Under the pieces are notes generated by a model. It did no database searches, was not told the DNA's origin, and saw only the letters and a program-made list of their open reading frames with translations. From Porphyra umbilicalis (taxonomy: Eukaryota; Rhodophyta; Bangiophyceae; Bangiales; Bangiaceae), in assembly GCA_002049455.2 (NCBI GenBank), contig KV918987.1, forward strand, positions 1 to 64,000: a DNA stretch of 64,000 nucleotides, given 5' to 3'. The position numbers and the translations under genes were made by a program. This document shows, in pieces, positions 1,819 through 17,034 of this stretch. The first letter of the stretch is position 1. Every line of letters starts with the position of its first letter.

Positions 1819-3239
1819 AGATTTCTTGTGAACGACCCGCATCCGCGGATCACGGTGCGCGGCGCGCCCGGGTCGGGCCCCCCGCCGCTGTCTCCACCCC
1901 CCTGCTCCTCCGTGACGCCCCGCATCTGTGGCCGTCCACCTCCTGCTCCACAGAAACGCGGTAAACGGTGGAGCGCACGCATGCACACCGGCGGCCAGAC
2001 GCGGAGCCGTTGCGGCTCGCGCCGCGACCCGTTACGGGTGCCTGTCCAAGAGCGGGCGTCGCCCCGGCGGAGAGGCAAAGGCCCCCCGTCGCGCACCGTC
2101 TGCGCCCCCCACGGGTGGTGGTGATGGCGGTGGCTGGGGGTCCACCGCAAATCTTGAGCCCAGCGATAGGGGCAAGGGAGGAGGCGCGCCCCCCGGCGCC
2201 CGAGGCGCGGCGGCGGCCGCCCCCGGGTCGTTGCTCCCGTCGTCGCCGGCCGGCGGGCCAAGCTGTCTGCTGCCACTCGCAGCAGGCCGCGCACGGCGAC
2301 CAAGGCGCGCGCGCGGGGCTCTCCCACCCCCCCCCCCCCGACGCGTTCCCCGAGCTTGCTGGCAGCCTCTCCACGCGCGCCCGTGGAAGGCGGGCCAGCA
2401 CAGCGAGCCGCGGCTCGGCCCGCGGTCACCCACCGCGGGGCCAGCGCATGGTTGCCGACGCGCCGCGGAGCCAGCACACGGTTGCGGACGCGCCGCGCCC
2501 GCGGCCCCGCCCGGACGCGCGGCGCGGCGGTGGCGGCGCGGCACGCCAGGCTGGTCGTAGGGGGCAAAGGCGGCCCGCCGGGGCGGCGGGCCCGCCCACG
2601 GGGCGGCGGCGCGGTGCGGACTCGCGGGGGGCCCACGAGCCCGCGCCGCCGCCGCTCGCGGGGGGCCCGCGAGCCCCACCCCCGCGTCGCCCAATCGCGG
2701 GCCGCGCGGACGCGTGGCGGGGGCGGGGCGCGCGGCGGGTAGCGGGCGGCGGGGCCCCTGACGCGCGAGTCGACGGGTCTGGCAATGGGGCGGCAGCGCC
2801 GCGCGGCGGCGCCCTCTGCGCGCGCGGCTGTGCGGCAGCCGCTCGCAGCTGCGCACGCGCACGTTCCTCTGCAGGGGCTGGCGTGTGTGGAAAGTGCGGC
2901 GGCGCCGCGTCCCGGCAGTACAAGAGGGCGCCAGCCAGCGCGCCTGGTGGGCTCGACGGCGGGCCCGGCGGTCACAGCCCGCCGAGTACCCGCGACGCGC
3001 CACAAGTGGCGTCTTCCTGCTCACCTGCTCTTTGGTGAGCGGCACCTACTCCCCGTCTTTGCCCACTCGAGGTTGGCGGTACCGGCTCCCCCTCTCCGCC
3101 CACTCTCTGGCACCTCGGCCCGAGGCGACCGCAACGGCCGGCGCTCTCACGCCGCCCTCGGTGTGCCACCAAGCCCGTGCGGCGCGCCCTCTCCCCGTGG
3201 CTATCCTTCCGTGTCTGCGCGTGTGCGGCAGCCGACATC

Positions 3240-3713
3240 ATGTGCTTGCTCGTGACGCAGGGGTACGACGCGGTCGCCAACAAAATCATCCAAAACGTCG
3301 TGCGGGACTGCCTGGACGCCGACTGCCAGTACTCTGTTATGAGTCGACTGGCGGAGCTAGATCCACCAGCGGGCTCTGCGCCTGTGCAAGATGCCGCTGA
3401 GGTTTCAGAGGACGACGACAACAACGACGCGCAAGACGACGAGGAGCAGGGCAGCGACGATGCGGAGCAGGGTGGGGTGCGGGAGGAAAGTGTGGACGAG
3501 GAGGGGGGTTGGCGGGAGGATGATGCTGAAGAGGAGGAGGGGGGTGATGAGATTATTGAGGATGAGGATGAGGGGGAGGAGGAGGTCTTTGAAGGGGAGG
3601 AAGAGGGCGATGCAGAAGAGGAGGCAGGAGCGCCCCCGGCGCCGCCCCAGGCTCCCGTTACGGACGACGAGCTGACGGACGACGAGCAGACGGATGACGA
3701 TCAGAACAAGTAG
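3240..3713 (+). CDS. acidic small protein, paralogue 1 of 3 (MCLLV family)
   Basis: The protein has 157 residues and I do not recognise the family. The ATG at 3240 is chosen because all three paralogues in this window begin there with MCLLV. Residues 1-36 form a conserved head: MCLLV, then a short amphipathic stretch (VANKIIQNVVRD), then a C-x4-C pair (DCLDADC) and an MSR motif. The rest is an acidic tail with long Asp/Glu runs, the shared words ESVDEEGG and APPAPPQAP, and TDDE repeats near the C-terminus. There is no signal peptide or membrane segment. The acidic tail suggests a chaperone-like, chromatin or disordered binding protein, but that is only inference. The kinase-like gene lies convergently 680 bp downstream. 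The flanks are conserved with the other two copies, so promoter and coding part were duplicated together. Confidence 0.7.
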   Translation: MCLLVTQGYDAVANKIIQNVVRDCLDADCQYSVMSRLAELDPPAGSAPVQDAAEVSEDDDNNDAQDDEEQGSDDAEQGGVREESVDEEGGWREDDAEEEEGGDEIIEDEDEGEEEVFEGEEEGDAEEEAGAPPAPPQAPVTDDELTDDEQTDDDQNK

Positions 3714-4391: not shown

Positions 4392-5237
4392 CTACCACCC
4401 GAACATGTCACGCAGCTCCGCCTCCAGCGCCTCCACGCACAACAGATCATTTTGCTCGCAGCTTGTGGTGGCGTCCGGGTTGAGTCGCTTCGTCGCCCCC
4501 CCCTTCGTCAGCGGCTCTCCCGGCGGCAGGCACGACTCAAAATTGACGAGCACCGCCTCTTCGTCGGCGGTCAGCCCAATGTTTTGAGGGCCGACGTCAT
4601 TGTGGCAGAGGCCGTACTCGTGGAGGTAGCTGAGCGCCGCCCGCACGCCGTTGATGACCTTGTCAACGTCCAGCGGGCGCAGCGGCGACTCCGTGCAGCG
4701 GAGCTGCAGCACGTTCGGGAGACAATCAAACACCAACCCGGGGATACGCCCGTTCGACTCAAGGACGCCGTGGTAGTTGATAATGTGGTCGGCTCGCGGG
4801 TCGGGGCCGTTCTCCATGTGGTACTTGCGCAGCTGCTCCATCACGTGCACCTCAGACGCAAGGCTGGCCTTGGACTGCGGGCGCGTCCTCGGATCCAGGT
4901 AGTCGATGAAGTCGGGAAACTTCAGAGTCAGCATCGGCCCGTACCTCGCGAACCTCTTCCACACGGTGTAGCCGCGGCGGAACTTGGGAAACGCCTGCAC
5001 CGGGTCAACCTGCAGCGGTGGGCCACCCTTGTTCCCCGGCGCCACGCGCTCCCCGTTTGGCAACGGCTGCTCCGCGGCGGTCAGCAGCGCCGGAAGATCG
5101 ATTGTGGGCAACCCCTGGCCCGGGCAGCGGAGGACAAAAAAGTCCATGTCTCTGCGCAAGACGACGGCTGTGTAGAGCTCCCCCGCGCCGTCGGCAGCCG
5201 GCTCGCGCAACGCCTTGTGAACATGTAGCTGATTCAT
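4392..5237 (-). CDS. protein-kinase-like protein, paralogue 1 (probable pseudokinase)
   Basis: The protein has 281 residues. The ATG at 5237 is chosen over upstream in-frame starts because the paralogue at 50408-51286 begins at the same distance from the shared ELYTAVV/DFFVL block. A kinase-like core is visible: a helix-C-like segment (ASEVHVMEQLRKY), a catalytic loop YLHEYGLCHNDVGPQNIGL with an HxD-type motif (HND) and the metal-binding Asn, then VLVNFESC in the place of the DFG strand. The Asp expected there is Asn, so this copy probably cannot bind Mg2+ normally. No APE motif or full C-lobe follows; the protein ends about 60 residues later. This short form resembles small phosphotransferase or lipopolysaccharide-kinase-like folds more than a canonical Ser/Thr kinase. 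The gene is convergent with the acidic-protein gene. Substrate and role are unknown. Confidence 0.7.
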   Translation of the reverse strand: MNQLHVHKALREPAADGAGELYTAVVLRRDMDFFVLRCPGQGLPTIDLPALLTAAEQPLPNGERVAPGNKGGPPLQVDPVQAFPKFRRGYTVWKRFARYGPMLTLKFPDFIDYLDPRTRPQSKASLASEVHVMEQLRKYHMENGPDPRADHIINYHGVLESNGRIPGLVFDCLPNVLQLRCTESPLRPLDVDKVINGVRAALSYLHEYGLCHNDVGPQNIGLTADEEAVLVNFESCLPPGEPLTKGGATKRLNPDATTSCEQNDLLCVEALEAELRDMFGW

Positions 5238-6822
5238 GTCGCTTTGGCGGCGACGTTTGGCCGCCGAGCAAGGGTAGCACCGCGCCTTAGCGGTTTGGGT
5301 GCTCAGGACGAGCAGCCTTGACCAAGCGCAAGGCGGTCTCGGTGAAAGAAAAGAAAACGCCATGAGTGGGGCAGGGCGCAACCAAGCGTCACCCACGTCG
5401 AAGCGGCGGCCGTAGCGAGTCAGACACATCATTGATCGTGGCGAGAGAGCGATGAAGACTGTGGGAGGCGCGTCAAAGCATGAAGCCACCATGAATCGCC
5501 ACGACGCAGGGACGAGCGAGTCACGCCCATGGCTCTCACTCGACAAGACGCGGGGGCGAACAAGTTACGCCGATGGCACTCACCCGATCCCCAAGGAACA
5601 GCTGTCTATGCCACGAACAAAGAGTCAACAGAGGCGTCGACAGGACGTACCAACAAGCATCGAAACAACTGCTGCTCCAGAAAGCCGTGGTGCCGCCCGT
5701 GCGCGGGGAGCACCGCCCGGCACAACGCAGGCAGTAGGGAGAGTCCGGGCAGTTGGTGGTGCGGCGACAACGAATGTATGGCGCCCCCACAGGTGCAAGC
5801 ACGACGCGGCTCCGACACGAGCACTTGAGAGGGGCGGGCATCCTCCCTGGGCGTGCACAGCGTGCGGGCGGCAGACGCGTGCCGCCCGCTCTTGACGAGA
5901 TTGTGCGGGCTGTGTGCTGTTTGGGCTCTCCCTCAATCGTCAGCGGTTGATGTTTTCCCCAATATGTCCCCAAAGCGTTTGGACTCGTTGTTCCAACGAG
6001 CACCCGGTCCGTCGGGGTTTGTTGAGGGACTCGTTGGCGCGTTGGGCACGTTGGGGAACATCTCCAACGAGCTCTGTCACGAGACAGAACCACATGAGGC
6101 GCACTCCTGGCCACAGATGTTTCAGGCCCTCTGTGAACTGCAATTGTCCTTGACTACTGTCGGACGTGGAGTGGGAAAGCAGTTGAGTTGAGCCGCTACT
6201 GCAGTCGAAGTGCACGCGAGCTGCATCTCTCGGCGTTGACAACGGTCTTAATATCAACATGATCTACTTTGACGCTCTCCCGCCGTCCTTAGCCCGTCCC
6301 TGCCGCGGCTCAACAGGCATCAATCGCGAGAGCTCCGTGCGAAAGGGCTCATCAAATCTGGAGCATGTCGGGCTGTTCGTTGCGACATGTTGGGCCCCGA
6401 TAAATCCCGACGAATGGCGGATTCCCTGGGTCGATGTCGCAACGAGCGAGTCGCTGGGCGTTCGTTGGAAAATGCATCAGGGGCTGACGATGTCGCCGCC
6501 GCACAGGGCCCTGCAAACCTGACTGCTGATTGGTCGGGCGATGGCGACCGCCCTGACAGACAGCTCGCAGGCTACACAGTCTACGTACAGGCCAAGTCAT
6601 GATTAACGACTCGCGTTGCTGGCCCACGTGTGTCGCGTCGACTCGGGTGGCTATAAGCCAATGGGAGACCCCAACTGTTGCCATGCATGACCTTCAACAA
6701 AATCCAGCACGACTGGACGAGTTTTACTGATCCACTTTGTGGATACTTCGTGGAAATGATGAGTCGCCAAAGAATGATCGGGTCTGGAACAAGCTCACAG
6801 CAGGTTGCAGTACTGTCAACAT
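5238..6822. other. 5' flank of the kinase-like gene and tail of duplicated unit 1
   Basis: No gene is recognised. The sequence from about 5530 to 5900 is diverged but alignable with the flank of the second kinase-like gene (about 51540-51900), and parts match 38400-38600 and 42780-43276. So the kinase-like gene was copied with at least 600 bp of upstream sequence. The stretch becomes more AT-rich toward 6822. Confidence 0.5.
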
Positions 6823-6838
6823 CCACTCATATGCCACG

Positions 6839-7541
6839 CCTAAAGGTCGATTTCACGCATTAAGGCGCATGAGCGCGACTCATATTGGCGCGCACAGAAC
6901 TCGACAATGGAACAAGCGTTGACGCTCCGCATGGACGCATCCTGGAGCCTACTTCATCAGCTTTTTTATGACCCACTTTCAGGCGGCTACGACAATAGGC
7001 TTGAGAGACAGACGTTTTTCCTTGCATCCCACCGTTGTCTTGAACGCCTTTTTGTGGAATAAATGGCCCGCTGATCACGCTGCAGGCGGTAACCCGACGT
7101 GGCTAGGCAACAAAATGCGTGTTATCGGTGCTGCGGGGAAGTCTGGACGACATGGGTGGCCGTTGGTCGACATGGGCGGTGGTGGTGGGGGGCAGGTGAT
7201 GCTCGTAGCCGGCCGACAGAAAGTGCATTTCCATGGGATGCCAGATCGGATCAATACGTGTCTTGCATGAGAAATTGGTCAGAGCCAGTTCTGGATCGGC
7301 AGAGACAAAGAAAACGGCGCGATTCTGGAGGGGCAGAGAAGCACCGAGGTGTATCTCAGCGCTACAAGATCCTTTGAGCGCCTAGTCTTTTTTCCTTGAG
7401 TACCCATGCCACGGAGACCAGTTCTATTTACTTCTCATGGTTAAAAAAAGTCTAGAATAGCAGAGAAAACCCTTTCGTCATGCGCCTAAATGCATGGAAT
7501 AGACCTTTAGTCAAGACGCAGTGTACCGGCTCTTCTGGGTC
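6839..7541 (+). repeat. left terminal inverted repeat of the long-TIR transposon
   Basis: This is the inverted copy of 11108-11800. The outer border reads CCTAAAGGTCGATT. The inner border of the 672-bp part, at about 7510, carries the same motif in reverse, so the arm looks like a small element with its own inverted ends. A 10-bp insertion separates the 672-bp part from the 16-bp innermost motif at 7526-7541. Confidence 0.85.
6968..7270 (+). pseudogene. arm-encoded reading frame, left copy (prematurely ended)
   Basis: It starts at ATG 6968 and reads MTHFQAATTIGL, then a stretch with WLGNKMRVIGAAGKSGR and a poly-Gly block. It ends after 100 residues at a TGA (7268-7270), where the copy in the right arm has TCA. 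Beyond the stop the same frame stays similar to the right copy. The product is not recognised. It is the disabled partner of 11240-11671. Confidence 0.4.
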
Positions 7542-8232
7542 GCGACAGAAACGGCGACGTACCATTGGCTTCTCGGTTCAAATGCAAACAACCATTGGTC
7601 AGTTCCAAAATTGTCAGCCTGTCGTCACATTGCGCGCCAAACCCGTCTCCTTTCTTCAGAATCGCAACGTGGAGCAGGTCAACCGCACCAGTGGGGCCTC
7701 GAGGGGGGGGGGGGATTCCTTGCAGGGATCTGTACCTCGGAGAATCGACACCGATCCACCCCTTTTTCCACGGAGAGAAGCTCATGAAGAACGACTGCCC
7801 TAGCCACCAAACCACAGGACCTCAGCCAGTCTGGCTGCTATACATCCTCCCCACTGCAACTACCATGAACACACAGGGCAAAACAATGGCACTTGGTCAC
7901 CGGGAGTCCTCTCGTAGACGACCCTCGTACGTGGCGACGGTCTGAGCCGCCACAGCGAACACCTCATCCGCCCACGTAGCCCGCTCGCCGGCGGCCTTCT
8001 CCCGCGTCTCGTCGCAGACGGGCACCACCGGCTTGTTTGCACGTAACCGCTTGTCGCCCGCCTTTGTCGCCAAGTGCGCCCCCTCCTTGGCGGACGACCG
8101 CTTGTGGGCAGACCAACCGATCACGGCCGGGCTTGCATCGCCAGCGAGCGCCATGGCGCGCACGAAGGCAGCGGCAGACGCTAGGTCCGACTCGCCCGGA
8201 TACAGCCGTGCCGTCTGCGTGTACCGGCCGTG

Positions 8233-10524
8233 TCATGCCTTCAAGCCCTGCTCCCCATACAAGCCAATGCTGCCAAACTCATCTAAGAAATCTGGGGCGT
8301 GCGCTAGCAAGAGGTGCAGCTTTGGAGACACATTGAGCCACGAAATCGAGCCCTTCAGGCCCGACACAAATGCCGCCACGTCAGCCCGGAACGCGGCAGC
8401 ATCGCCGGCTGCCACGATGCTCGCGCTGTTGAGGACCTTCCGAATCCGGTTCCACAGACCCCACGCGGTTTTGTACGCGTGGAGAAAGCGCCTGCTGACC
8501 GCGGCGTCCTCCCCTTTAAGCCCAGAGAGTTTCCTCTCGAGCGCCGCGCACACCGCATCGCTGTGCTCACCAATTGCGTGGCAGTCTCTCCCGATGAAGA
8601 GGCCACCATGGTAGGGCACTGGGTGCACATGCACTTCCTCATATAGCAGTTCGGCGAGCTCATGTGCGAAGGCAGACCCCGCGCGGTGGCCGCAACACAG
8701 GATCACGACCTCCACGGCCAGCCGCAACTCCCGGGAATTGATCCCAAGGGTGAGATGAACGGGAATTGGAACAATTTGACGCGGATGGGGGGATACCAGC
8801 GGCGCCCGTGTCACCGACAGGTGGTCGGCCTGGCCCAAATTGGCCACGTCCTCGACGCAATGTGCGTATTGATCAGCATCGCGCAAGTGCCATGGCCCCA
8901 ACACATCTTGTAGCGTCCCGTACTTCGCGTCAAGGGCAGCGTGGGCGATGCTGGGAGCCTTCGTGCTCTTGCACTGATAGCATGGCATGGTGGCATTGGG
9001 GCCTTTGTGTCCAACGACCGTCGTCTGGGACTCGTAGTCGCCCGAAAGAATCAAGCGCACAGGCCGACGTTCGCCACGTACGTCCAGTCCCCTGCCCAGC
9101 AACTCATCGATGCAGGGCATGTGTGTCGCCATCATGGCTGACACCTGCGGATAGTGTTCCTTGTCGCACGGGCACACAGCTGCAAGAATAGTGTTGCTGG
9201 GGTTGTTGGGCCGCTCTTGGTTGATAATAGTGACCACGAGTTTTTTGGAGCCCGGGTCACTGCCCTTGTCCAGTCCGACCGTGATGTGTACGTCAGGGAC
9301 CGTTGGGGGAGGGCGGCCGCCCCACGCCCCAGGATCAAAGTCATTGGGGACGGTGGCGTCCTCGGCTCGTAGGGGCTCGTGGTCGGGGCCGTACACGAAA
9401 CGCTCCACAAACTGGCCAGCGTCGCACAGGGCCGTAACGCGCTCCTGCACGGCCAGCGCCAAGTTTGCCAGATGCGCCCCCGTGCTTGTGACTATCACCT
9501 CCTTGGCTGGAGAGGATGCAAGCTCCCGCTTCGCAGCGCGCAGTACATGGCGGCTGGCCAGCCCGCTCTTGCTTCCACCCAGCGCGTGGCGCAACTTGCT
9601 GAATGTGGACCAGCTTATGCCCAGTTCAAAAACCAGCCCCACCTGGTGCCGCACGGACAGACCGCCGACCTTAACGGGGCTACCAGGGGTCCCAGACATT
9701 TCGTCTGCTCCCCACTTGGTCGCACCAGCCGATACCAGCTGTTGCCGCGCTGCTGCCCTCCGCTTGTTTTGTTGGCTTTTTTTAACAGCCACCTTCTGAG
9801 GTGAGACCTTCCGCACGTACACGCGTCGCCGCCCGTTCTTGTGCTGCAAAAAAATCTCATCTTGGTTGCTGCGTAGAAAAATCACCGACGCAATGCGCCC
9901 AAGAATGCGCTCATCCTGCGCATGTCCGACGCCACCCGACACCAAGTAATCCATGAAATCCTGGCACCTCGAATTAGCGTTTGCTTGACCCGCTGGTGAG
10001 ACGAGGGGCGGCATGCCTCCGACTTCTACGTTTGGGGTGGGTGAATCCAGCATCGACTTGGCACGGAGGTGGGCCTCCAGGTGACGCACACGTGCAACGG
10101 GTTCGGCGGCTGCCGCCAAGGCCTCACGCTCAGCGCGTCGCGCCGAATCAGCGTCGAGCCTTGCCGACGCGCACGAGGGGAACTCGGCCACACTGCTACG
10201 GATGACCGAAGACCCTGCTGCAGGTGCAGGGAGAGCAGAGAGGGAGCAAGGAGGGCACGGTGGGACTGCTGCAGGGGGGGGAGTCGAAAGCAGCAGCGGC
10301 AGACGCGCCCGCTTACTGGCATACGGGGGCAGGTCTGAGGAAAACTCGAGTCCCGGAGCAATCGGTGCGGGGTCATCAGAGGCTGACCTCTTGGCAGCCC
10401 GCTTCCGCCTTGAGTAGCAAGAATCGCAGCTGCCGCGCCTGCATGCAGACACAGGGATGCAGGCCACGCGCCAGCGAGCTGACCCATGTGGGCTCTGTAT
10501 CGCCTCTGCTCGCCAATGAGCCAT
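8233..10524 (-). CDS. transposase-like protein, DDE/RNase-H-type, superfamily not assigned
   Basis: The first in-frame ATG is at 10524 (763 residues). The open frame continues 19 codons upstream to 10581, where CVGCD adds a Cys pair. A CATTTTACAG acceptor-like site lies at 10586-10595, so an upstream exon is likely. In the longer numbering, a Cys/His-rich head (residues 6-55) suggests a zinc finger, a coiled helix lies at 145-175 and a basic stretch at 250-282. The core has VGLDKGSDPGSKKLVV (D438), LILSGDYES (D515) and MPCYQC (C534, C537), and it ends WLNVSPKLHLLLAHAPDF...EQGLKA. This pattern (DKG, then GDYE, then C-x2-C, then PKLH..L.H.P.F and EQG) is familiar from animal and algal transposase-like proteins of unsettled class. 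Relatives usually run on after EQG, so the C-terminus may be cut short. Confidence 0.7.
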   Translation of the reverse strand: MAHWRAEAIQSPHGSARWRVACIPVSACRRGSCDSCYSRRKRAAKRSASDDPAPIAPGLEFSSDLPPYASKRARLPLLLSTPPPAAVPPCPPCSLSALPAPAAGSSVIRSSVAEFPSCASARLDADSARRAEREALAAAAEPVARVRHLEAHLRAKSMLDSPTPNVEVGGMPPLVSPAGQANANSRCQDFMDYLVSGGVGHAQDERILGRIASVIFLRSNQDEIFLQHKNGRRRVYVRKVSPQKVAVKKSQQNKRRAAARQQLVSAGATKWGADEMSGTPGSPVKVGGLSVRHQVGLVFELGISWSTFSKLRHALGGSKSGLASRHVLRAAKRELASSPAKEVIVTSTGAHLANLALAVQERVTALCDAGQFVERFVYGPDHEPLRAEDATVPNDFDPGAWGGRPPPTVPDVHITVGLDKGSDPGSKKLVVTIINQERPNNPSNTILAAVCPCDKEHYPQVSAMMATHMPCIDELLGRGLDVRGERRPVRLILSGDYESQTTVVGHKGPNATMPCYQCKSTKAPSIAHAALDAKYGTLQDVLGPWHLRDADQYAHCVEDVANLGQADHLSVTRAPLVSPHPRQIVPIPVHLTLGINSRELRLAVEVVILCCGHRAGSAFAHELAELLYEEVHVHPVPYHGGLFIGRDCHAIGEHSDAVCAALERKLSGLKGEDAAVSRRFLHAYKTAWGLWNRIRKVLNSASIVAAGDAAAFRADVAAFVSGLKGSISWLNVSPKLHLLLAHAPDFLDEFGSIGLYGEQGLKA

Positions 10525-11107
10525 GCCGGTGCTCTGTTTAAAAAAAAGAGAGTCACAACCGACGCACTTGTAGGCCCACACAGACCTGTAAAATGCTGTG
10601 GCGACGTCTTCTGCGGTAGCCCTGTAGGAATAGAGGTACTCGAGGGCAGCATCGAGGCCACAGCAGCATTTGGAGCGTGGGGGAACGCAAGCAACCGTCA
10701 GCCATATGTGTCCGCAGCACAGATGAAACAGACAGCGCCAAGGGGGTCATAGAGGCGTGCATACACGCAGTGCACAACACTCACCTCCCGCAAAAAGACG
10801 CAGATTAGTGACTTACATTCTGCAACCCTTCGTGTCGACCACCTTGCGAACCTCCGATCGGCCACGGTTGCAGGGGAGGGGTGTGAGGAGACTGGTGGTG
10901 CCAACAGATGGCGCGGTCTGGGCAGGGCGATGCAAGCCATTGCGTTAACGAGAGACGAACGACTCCGATCGAAACCCAGCTGTGTCGAACCCCCGTCAGA
11001 GAGGCTGTTGTGGCAGGGTCGCATTTGGGTCGCGACCCAAATGGATTTTGACCACTCAGATTTCTGCACGTTGCATCACCGTTTTCAGTGGGTCACTGTC
11101 AGTCTCA

Positions 11108-11800
11108 GACCCAGAAGAGCCGGCTTGACTAAAGGTCTATTCCATGCATTTAGGCGCATGACGAAAGGGTTTTCCCTGCTGTTTTAGACTTTTTTTAACC
11201 AAGAGAAGTAAACAGAACTGGTCTCCGTGGCATGGGTACTCAAGGAAAAAAGACTAGGCGCTCAAAGGATCTTGCAGCGCTGAGATACACCTCGATGCTT
11301 CTCTGCCCCTCCAGAATCGCGCCGTTTTCTTCGTCTCTGCCGATCCAGAACAGGCTCTGATCAATTTCTGATGCAATACACGTAATGATCCGATCTGGCA
11401 TCCCATGGAAATGCACTTTCTGTCGGCCGCCTACGAGCATCACCTGTCCCCCACCACCACCGCCTATGTTGACCAACAGCCACACATGTCGTCCAGACTT
11501 CCCCGCAGCACCGATAACACGCATTTTGTTGCCTAGCCACGTCGGGTTACCGCCTGCAGCGTGATCAGCGCGCCATTTATTCCACAAAAAGGCGTTCAAG
11601 ACAACGGTGGGATGCAAGGAAAAACGTCTGTCTCTCAAGCCTATTGTCGTAGCCGCCTGAAAGTGGGTCATAAAAAAGCTGATGAAATAGGCTCCAGGAT
11701 GCGTCCATGCGGAGCGTCAACGCTCGTCCCATTGCCGAGTTCTGTGCGCGCCAATATGAGTCGCGCTCATGCGCCTTAATGCGTGGAATCGACCGTTAGG
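11108..11800 (-). repeat. right terminal inverted repeat of the long-TIR transposon
   Basis: This is the inverted copy of 6839-7541 without the 10-bp insertion. The innermost motif is at 11108-11123, then CTTGA, then the 672-bp part (11129-11800), which is the same length as its partner. It carries the uninterrupted copy of the arm-encoded reading frame. Confidence 0.85.
11240..11671 (-). CDS. arm-encoded hypothetical protein, right copy (143 aa)
   Basis: An ATG-started frame of 143 residues lies wholly inside the right inverted repeat. It reads MTHFQAATTIGLRDRRFSL at the start, has KMRVIGAAGKSGRH and a GGGGGGQVMLVGGRQKVHFHG segment in the middle, and ends SFERLVFFP. The left arm carries the same frame with an early stop, so only this copy could make a full product. 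No family is recognised. It could be an accessory protein of the transposon, a captured host fragment, or chance. The conserved frame beyond the stop in the left copy argues mildly for former coding function. Confidence 0.35.
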   Translation of the reverse strand: MTHFQAATTIGLRDRRFSLHPTVVLNAFLWNKWRADHAAGGNPTWLGNKMRVIGAAGKSGRHVWLLVNIGGGGGGQVMLVGGRQKVHFHGMPDRIITCIASEIDQSLFWIGRDEENGAILEGQRSIEVYLSAARSFERLVFFP

Positions 11801-11835
11801 CATGATGCGCACCGGTCATATGACCAGGGATAAGA

Positions 11836-14862: not shown

Positions 14863-17034
14863 TCACGAGGTCGACTGCTGCGTCCCCAACAGTCCGCTCG
14901 CTCCCAAATCGCCATCCATCTCCTCGTCTCCCCCCCCTTGACTGTCAAGCCCCTCGCCCAGCAACTCAGTGGCAACTCCAGCCATGTGGTTTGCAGCGCT
15001 GTGCAGGTTCATGCTCCCCTCCCCTACCTCTGCGTCTGTATCCACTCCATCCTGCTCAAAAGATGGGCTCTCGACGCCACCTGTCGTCCGCGCGCTAGAG
15101 GCCTCGTATTCTGGCGGTAAAGTGGGCAGCGCCCTAGAGTTGAAGTAAATGAACAGCAGCTTGTGGAAGGTGGCATAGGACAGCCGGGTGCGCAGCTTGG
15201 ACTTGATGTTCCCAGCGTTGGAGAAGGACCGCTCACCCGCCGCAAAGCCCGCGGGGAGCTGCATGATCTTCACGGCCAACACCTGCAGACACGGGACCGA
15301 TTTGCCCCACGTCCGCCACCAGCGCATCGGGTTGGCCATCTTCGCTCCCTCCCATGCAAGCGGCAGGGAGAGCAGGCCGCCGTCCTTCGCTTTAAACGCT
15401 GTGTACTCGGCCATGACGTTCTCGGCGTGGGTCTTGTCGTAGTCGGCGGGCAGGTCCTCCTCCTGGCTGCAGCGATGAATCTATAATGCGAGCTTGCCGT
15501 CGTGCGCCGCGGCCATGGACTTGAGAAGCTCAAAGGCATCTCTCACCTCATTGTTGGTCAGCTGGTCGGTCCTTCCGACAAATCGGGGGTCCAGCATGTA
15601 CGCAAGGTTGTGAATGGGCCGCAGGCTGTAGGTGCGGCGCTCCGTCAGCGACTTGAGCACGTGCTGCTTAAGCAGCATCCGCTCGGAGGTTTGTGGGTAG
15701 GCAAAGTTGATGAAATGGGCTTGCAGCTGGAAGAAGGCGTCCCGCACACGGCCGATGCCGATCCCGTCGCTCTGGCCGTTATCTAACGCCACTGCCAGCG
15801 GTTTAAGAAGCTGCGCTACGGCGCGGAGCTCCTCCCAGTTGGTCTCGTTCTTGACGGCCAGGACAGCCTTTGCGACCGACCTACGCTGCTCCGCAGAGCC
15901 GCCATTGATGCACTCCCTCTTGAAGACAGCGTCCACCACCGCCTTCTCCATCGCGCACTGGGTCTTGAGGAGCGACTCAGCAGCCGTGTACTGCGACTTC
16001 CACCGCGTGTCGCCGGGCCGCTGCAGCTGAATCACTTGCCCGTACTCGGCGACCTGGCAGCGCTCGAGCGTGGCCTTTGGAAATCCCTGGTTTCTACAAA
16101 ACAGGTGCATATTGTTGCAAAATTCCAGGGACCGCGACACAAACGCGTTCTTGCAAATGTCCCCAAAGAGCAGGTTGAACGCGTGGGCGGCGCAAGGCAG
16201 CATCAGCATCCAAGGGTAGCGGTCTTGCAGGAGGTCCCACAACGCGCGCATCTTGGGCTCGGTGTCGGACACAAACGCACACACGTTGCGGGCGCCGAGC
16301 GCGTCGATGCGCGCGGCATAAAACGCCGCCGTATTCTCGGCTGTGTGGCGGCTCTCTCCCCAAACCTTGGTCTCCACGTACAGTGGGTCGGGGGTAAAGA
16401 CGACCACGTTGTAGATGCTGTTCTTGGACAGGTCCGACCACCCATAGCCGCCGACGACAATGTTACCGACGGCGACGCAACGCTGCACAAAGGCGTCGAC
16501 AATCTTTTTGAGCGCCAGGAATTCGTTGTCGAGCAGCGGGCCGGCAAGGGAGAAGCGGGAGGGAGGTTTGTACGCAGGGTTGAGGGCCCGCGTGAAGGAG
16601 AGGAAGGCGGGAGACTCGGTCGTTTGCAGGGGCAGCGCGCCTTGGTAGATCCAGCGAGCACATTTGGAGTCGATGGCCGCGTTCTCCTTTTGCGTCATGC
16701 GCGACACATAGTTGCTGAGGCCTCCCTGCTCTGAGCTTGCTGTCCCGCCGACCTTTGCTCTCTTGGAGCTCGGCTCGGCGGGGCTCTTTACACAGTCAGC
16801 CGCCTCCATGGCCGATGACAGCCGTGCTTCCTTGTTACCTCGCTTGCCATCATGGAGCCTCCGAGCCATCGCGACGCGGACGTCGGCAGGGGCCTTGCAA
16901 GTGTTTTTGAGGATGTGATCCTTCATAAATGTTGGGTTCTTGAACATTTCTGCGCTGCAGAACGTGCACTTGACTCGCCGCGGGGTGGCCGTGGAGGTAA
17001 AGTACAGCCACACAGGATCCTTGGGGGCAGGCAT
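14863..17034 (-). pseudogene. hAT-family transposase, copy 1, damaged
   Basis: The frame spans 724 codons from ATG 17034 (MPAPKDPVW) to 14863. An N-terminal BED zinc finger is visible (C23, C26, H40, C46). The hAT core is at about residues 190-300, and the C-terminal dimerisation motif near 15150-15290 reads AAGERSFSNAGNIKSKLRTR. Two lesions are clear. The GDGW motif that carries the first catalytic Asp in the sister gene reads GGYGWS here (Tyr197). One in-frame TAG lies at 15481-15483, after which the same frame continues with recognisable hAT sequence (LPADY...AEYTAFK). The second Asp motif, FVSDTEPKM (D257), is intact. The gene is therefore a dead transposase. It is closely related to the copy at 18748 on the other strand, which lacks this gene's C-terminal part. 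Confidence 0.85.

Follow-up and report, generated by a model that had tools for sequence, protein, structure and literature searches.

Apparent long terminal inverted repeats of a Chapaev-like transposon in Porphyra umbilicalis are best read as two insertions of a 665-bp MITE

We analysed 64,000 nt of Porphyra umbilicalis DNA (assembly GCA_002049455.2, contig KV918987.1, positions 1 to 64,000; hereafter the window) and conclude, with a probability of about 0.93, that the repeat-flanked element it contains is a Chapaev-like transposon with an independent insertion of a 665-bp derivative of an IS630-Tc1-mariner (ITm) element in each terminal inverted repeat (TIR); the apparent 'long TIRs' are these insertions. 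In the proposed course of events, a Chapaev-like cut-and-paste transposon (TIR CACGCCTAGTCAAG..., 4-bp duplication ATGC) would have landed at the locus, and a 665-bp IS630-Tc1-mariner-type deletion derivative would have entered each TIR independently at CTAG, with duplication of TA. In each Chapaev TIR the insertions would thus part the terminal 8 bp from the remainder by 0.67 kb. What can be read from the DNA itself comprises empty and filled sites, TA and 4-bp duplications, solo arms, an arm-free core, and a larger relative that shares the ends of the unit and has a putative transposase frame.

Comparison of repeats within the window gave inverted arms at 6835-7518 and 11121-11804 (684 nt, 96% complementary), slightly wider than the long inverted repeat of the initial annotation, which is borne out together with the inverted motif at both borders of each arm (33-36 nt, 86-88% complementary). 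The element itself is real, but its extent, given earlier as 6839..11800, is corrected to 6835..11804 (4970 bp), with the ATGC duplication outside. Direct reading gives the order ATGC, CACGCCTA, 665-bp unit, TAGTCAAG, core, CTTGACTA, 665-bp unit, TAGGCATG, ATGC. The two copies of the 4-bp duplication lie at 6831..6834 and 11805..11808; most relatives have such a duplication too. Of the Chapaev-like TIRs, the outer part on the left, CACGCCTA, occupies 6835..6842 (plus strand) and that on the right, TAGGCATG, one change from TAGGCGTG, occupies 11797..11804 (minus strand). The left unit (6843..7507, plus strand), characterized as a non-autonomous IS630-Tc1-mariner-type MITE from its near-full copies and its correspondence to the ends of the larger relative, lies between TA copies at 6841..6842 and 7508-7509; the right unit, of the same family and length (11132..11796, minus strand), lies between TA copies at 11130-11131 and 11797-11798. 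Both have their outer ends outward. The Chapaev-like body between the units extends from the G of TAGTCAAG to the C of CTTGACTA (7510..11129). Two neighbouring features were seen in the window: a frame at 14863-15414 (minus strand) with the hAT C-terminal dimerisation domain PF05699 (E 6.8e-10), left over from another transposon next to the element, and a 384-codon frame at 4392-5546 (minus strand) that looks kinase-like by eye (HNDVGPQNIGL).

Both arms are situated at one CTAG of the core TIRs (CACGC-CTAG-TCAAG), starting at the sixth base. The empty site CACGC-CTAG-TCAAG corresponds to a filled site CACGC-CTA-[unit]-TAG-TCAAG, in which the TA inside CTAG is duplicated; the empty form CACGCCTAGTCAAG is present in L047, L050, L051, L055 and L057, while the filled site of the window reads CACGCCTA[unit]TAGTCAAG. 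Removal of both units and the duplicated TAs from the element leaves 4970 - 2 x (665+2) = 3636 bp, which is the length of an arm-free copy of the core, C294, with a continuous CACGCCTAGTCAAG (97% identity; 3.0% divergence from the window core). The unit insertions would postdate the split of these two cores. Full elements with the same arms at a second place, as envisaged in the initial annotation, did not emerge: the three other long core matches (C294, C24 and C390; 40 of 117 candidates scored) have no arm match within 1.5 kb on either side.

The genome (83.8 Mb, 665 contigs) was searched for further copies. With 40 of 174 candidates scored, the left arm gave at least 51 matches, of which at least 40 are near full length and 92-100% identical, a number far in excess of chance; 14 of 40 copies fit neither TIR junction of the core even at 2 mismatches. 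As the arm is found without the core and the core without the arms, nesting is supported. Of the two structures proposed earlier, a composite or TIRs enlarged by capture, what survives is the pair of nested small elements, in view of the solo arms and the arm-free C294; a composite moving as a unit does not. With up to 3 mismatches the end pattern of the unit occurs 190 times in the genome (reversed control 0), a count that includes outer ends and some inner ends, and nearly all of the 20 copies that were read start with CTAAAGGTC and finish with GACCTTTAG. Two of the copies, L002 (C177) and L008 (C584), have a common left flank (91% over 969 bases); their right flanks start differently and do not match each other.

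Some of the matching ends are spaced more widely than in the unit. One such pair, on C263, delimits the larger relative of the unit, L066 (3.25 kb), which has the same ends and is itself located inside the same Chapaev TIR site. Positions 2-240 of the 672-bp outer arm part align to L066 46-282 (80%) and positions 261-672 to 2890-3301 (83%). This correspondence skips the transposase region; the unit corresponds to the two ends of L066 and, like other MITEs, is non-coding and derived from a larger element by internal deletion. In its TA duplication (empty CTAG vs CTA[unit]TAG) the arm family resembles ITm elements. The DDE_3 domain expected of an ITm transposase was found through L066, where a minus-strand frame matches PF13358 with E 1.3e-4, though its 22.3 bits are below the curated 28.6. 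In this frame 91 residues separate the second Asp from the Glu; an in-frame stop stands just ahead of the first Asp, and there are motifs DET, IDRAP and NPIE, which we take to be Tc1-mariner-type motifs. Protein relatives of the frame number 130; among the 120 listed many carry PF13358 by precomputed annotation, and one from Globisporangium ultimum is named Tc1-like transposase. The transposase has 72 matches in the genome (all 75 candidates scored), and a PDB sequence search with a piece of L066 gave a weak match to Sleeping Beauty (E 0.063). The units would have been moved in trans by the transposase of L066-like elements.

Membership in Sailor (DD82E) was considered and rejected. The spacing of 91 residues falls within 78-111, the range given for Sailor (DD78E-DD111E) in PMC8533490, where a TATA duplication is ascribed to the majority; unlike most Sailor elements, the arm family targets TA within CTAG. 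At C4:139819-144324, two unit-type ends enclose ∼4.5 kb, within which C4:142100-142849 matches the transposase; the ends of this locus matched neither TIR junction pattern.

The core has termini CACGCC...GGCATG with the 4-bp duplication ATGC; termini of its relatives read CACGCC...GGCGTG, from which the right end in the window differs by one change in GTG. Duplication of 3 to 4 bp at the target, a hallmark of Chapaev, is thus present in the window, and an exact 4-bp duplication was observed in nine of the 12 distinct relatives with both ends read (lacking in C228, C294 and C297); in one of the nine, C32, the TIRs are 3 and 2 mismatches off the pattern. The hallmarks used for comparison were drawn from PMC4079192 and PMC3985635, and the latter equates DUF1280 with Chapaev. 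The initial annotation had left the transposase outside any named superfamily; profile searches now give Chapaev (CMC; DUF1280, PF06918) as the closest, with relatives P0006, P0009 and P0010 scoring 25.3-27.1 bits against a cut-off of 25, and P0001 (23.5), P0002 (19.7) and the window copy (19.9 bits, E 6.2e-4) below it. Scoring of 7,998 candidates from a large protein collection yielded 18 relatives of the core protein. From the 5'-CAC...GTG-3' termini, the 4-bp duplication, DUF1280 in relatives and the matches of a low-confidence predicted model to RAG1 and Transib, we regard the core transposase as closest to Chapaev, next to RAG1/Transib.

That model (AF2, mean pLDDT 49) has RAG1, RAG1 and Transib as its top three Foldseek matches, with query TM-scores of only 0.16-0.17 and rmsd near 20 Å for the RAG1 alignments; its predicted secondary elements follow an RNase-H-like order with a helical insertion. 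A PDB sequence search with the core protein returned only chance-level matches (best E 0.24). D438 (9268-9270) is invariant across 11 aligned rows and D515 (9037-9039) is nearly so. The Glu of a GLEA/IEA motif is present in 24 of 24 other loci, and its equivalence to RAG1 E962 emerges only if the aligned range is extended.

The 782-codon frame at 8233..10581 (minus strand) with DKG, GDYE and C-x2-C motifs (C534 to C537 at 8971-8982) is confirmed; it is a truncated copy rather than a complete gene, since a Trp stands where the frame stops in all 24 other loci (23 elements, C294 counted twice as L027 and L034; L021 among loci L021-L045 is the window itself). An E-A-W-H motif is kept in the same 24 loci and in the seven database relatives that reach it. 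In the window it has Lys for the conserved Glu (codon 8242-8244) followed by the stop, and the remainder of the C-terminus continues in frame past the stop at 7897..8232 (minus strand; the listed frame 7897..8163 is included). Some other core copies also have stops elsewhere. The transposase frame of the window is therefore broken and probably inactive. In contrast to Chapaev in general, the window copy has both TIRs split and a broken transposase; it would no longer be mobile.

Insertion at the Chapaev TIR site was found to be recurrent. Patterns for the two junctions, with up to 2 mismatches, occur genome-wide at 68 and 52 places (9 in both lists), which pair into 27 elements, 21 of 679-686 bp including junction letters and six of 987, 1310, 1437, 1565, 3265 and 3266 bp. 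When all junction places were used, 16 of the 40 arm copies had both TIR junctions and 10 had one, the 14 mentioned above having none; orientation of the 16 was 8 vs 8 (run on 50 of the 68 and 35 of the 52 places). With up to 1 mismatch allowed, 203 intact TIR sites were counted (reversed control 2). If TIRs account for 230 of the 8,461 CCTAGT sites of the genome, 16 of 40 copies in TIRs has P 3e-15; this figure for TIRs is an underestimate, and P rises to 0.01 only once ∼1,950 sites are TIRs. CTAG-containing words look depleted in the whole genome (CCTAGT 8,461 vs 27,887 for the same letters backwards).

The site is also used by others. A second small family (ends GTGTCTATT) occupies it in L060 and L054, and 17 junctions of this family with the outer TIR half were counted with up to 1 mismatch allowed (control 0). 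The pattern CACGCCTA-N(0-10)-TAGTYAAG, the remnant expected when a TA-duplicating element leaves the TIR site, has 20 occurrences with 0-8 extra bases (reversed control 0). In L054, a non-autonomous Chapaev-like relative (C221:116366-117480 region), one TIR reads CTATAG and the other has the second MITE family beside CTG-TAG; apparently, as far as the letters tell, an insertion followed an earlier excision and the site was re-used.

Elements with units in both TIRs are C227 and C3:333121-335772 (the left inner junction of the latter was not recovered), i.e. 2 seen vs 1.6 expected under independent hits with the ends taken as one pool. With the second family and scars counted, 7.7 double elements are expected on the same pooling and at least five are seen: C227, C3, C221 (L054) and the paired scars C146 and C332. 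A possible sixth is C299 (L061), where the inner half of either TIR leads into a unit-like end; 49 bases of these ends are 75% identical to L066. The paired scars belong to short elements, C146:159734-160554 and C332:62946-63158, where pattern matching gave a scar-type motif in both TIRs.

We considered whether the excess of units in TIRs reflects amplification of Chapaev elements after a unit had entered them. Some flanks would fit such hitchhiking: L001/L006 and L019 have inner flanks of 88-97% identity, and between L003 and L006 there is a 74% match over 94 bases. However, the units of L001 and L019 are oppositely oriented, with an 8:8 split overall; the elements inserted at the site fall into six size classes, from about 680 to 3266 bp; and, among the 20 loci, the unit-adjacent inner flanks of L004, L007, L013 and L015 match no other TIR copy, L007 matching L019 only ∼1 kb further inward. 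The second family and the scars at the same site argue against it as well. Given unit orientation, size classes and largely unrelated flanks, hitchhiking is disfavoured and we consider it improbable.

Still less probable is a composite transposon, in which the units would act as IS-like ends carrying the core as one block. It would account for a core flanked by inverted units of one family and for C3:333121-335772 as a second locus with a unit at each end. The 4-bp duplication, however, lies outside the Chapaev termini, the 97% identical core of C294 is armless, and the C3 double locus is absent from the core matches (40 of 117 candidates scored). Since units occur in TIRs as single insertions in both orientations, with double occupancy close to the independent expectation, a composite unit is unsupported.

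A single long-TIR (foldback-like) transposon, its TIRs grown by capture and its arms homogenised, was also considered. In its favour, the right arm has the left arm as its closest among the 20 copies (96.1% identity), and two variants are common to both arms and absent from all other copies of the 20. The left arm, in turn, is nearer to the copies in C177 (97.5%) and C27 (97.3%), and the arms, compared as trimmed units, differ at 26 positions; this 3.9% divergence exceeds the 3.0% between the window core and the arm-free core. Moreover, the arm is mobile alone, with its own TIRs and TA duplication, and we hold a foldback-like origin to be very unlikely. A tree of the 20 copies (10 bp of flank per side included) was weakly supported, with 2 of 17 inner branches starred. 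Independent insertions from related source copies fit the divergence of the arms best, and the two units would then derive from two source copies; an old conversion between the arms, or one shared source lineage, may explain the closeness of the right arm and the two shared variants.

Both arms carry an inward reading frame, MTHFQAATTIGL..., of 143 aa in the right arm (11240-11671, minus strand) and 100 aa in the left (6968-7270, plus strand), as the initial annotation described; its standing as a gene is unsupported. That the frame is a genuine gene for a small protein, borne by the element, can practically be dismissed: the 143 codons are open in seven of the 16 copies read individually (one of the seven without ATG; L009, L013, L018 and L020 were omitted for want of an anchor), but substitutions against the majority sequence of 20 copies (142 replacement, 59 silent, 10 stop) are close to those expected without selection from the unit's own mutation spectrum (147.9, 54.4 and 8.7), the replacement/silent ratio against L066 (0.90) lies inside the range of five other frames (0.71-1.03), and L066 has a stop within the frame. 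Substitutions per site are alike inside (0.49) and outside (0.52) the frame. By this neutral pattern among copies, both are classed as chance reading frames.

The preferred reading, a Chapaev-like transposon hit independently in each TIR, raises the question of why one site is hit so often; candidate causes are transposase preference, accessibility of TIRs and selection against insertions elsewhere. The unit end CACGC-A-TTAAGG resembles CACGC-CTAG-TTAAGG of some Chapaev-like TIRs (L044, L045). Among 5,000 dinucleotide shuffles, 6 had such a look-alike by chance, as did 4 of 5,000 plain shuffles and 9 of 8,000 random window stretches; as it was noticed after the fact, its weight is modest. A tentative and rather doubtful possibility is that an ITm lineage is parasitic on Chapaev-like transposons: it would be drawn to their TIRs, insert at CTAG, leave TA-n-TA scars and re-use the site, with a DNA-binding domain possibly recognising both its own look-alike end and the target, and with the host transposon maybe silenced by its split TIRs.

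Each part of this arrangement is known in kind; the recurrence of one transposon in the TIRs of another is its unusual aspect. Like the arm units, bacterial IS630 inserts at the TA of CTAG; the 5'-CTAG-3' target was reportedly described by Tenzen and Ohtsubo in 1991, and we know of no preference of IS630 for the TIR of another transposon. Such a landing of a mobile element in the terminal inverted repeat of another is the feature shared with IS4321/IS5075, which, reportedly according to Partridge and Hall in 2003, target TIRs of Tn21-family transposons. As described in PMC11187229, those elements belong to the IS1111 family, have a transposase of the DEDD type and use an RNA guide. Here, unlike there, the element is a eukaryotic one of ITm type with a DDE transposase, and TIRs are preferred rather than used exclusively. 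At the level of titles and abstracts, we found in the open-licence literature no report of a eukaryotic ITm element or MITE that prefers TIRs; a eukaryotic analogue of the bacterial TIR-targeting IS elements is unproven.

What appeared to be a new long-TIR transposon with an arm gene has thus dissolved, and a natural experiment of a transposon landing in TIRs has taken its place; in addition, this genome contributes a Chapaev/RAG1-like family. Should the preference be a property of the transposase itself, this would be a eukaryotic counterpart of bacterial TIR-targeting IS elements, a system for studying the acquisition of target specificity by a Tc1-mariner-type enzyme, and an example in which one transposon disables another.
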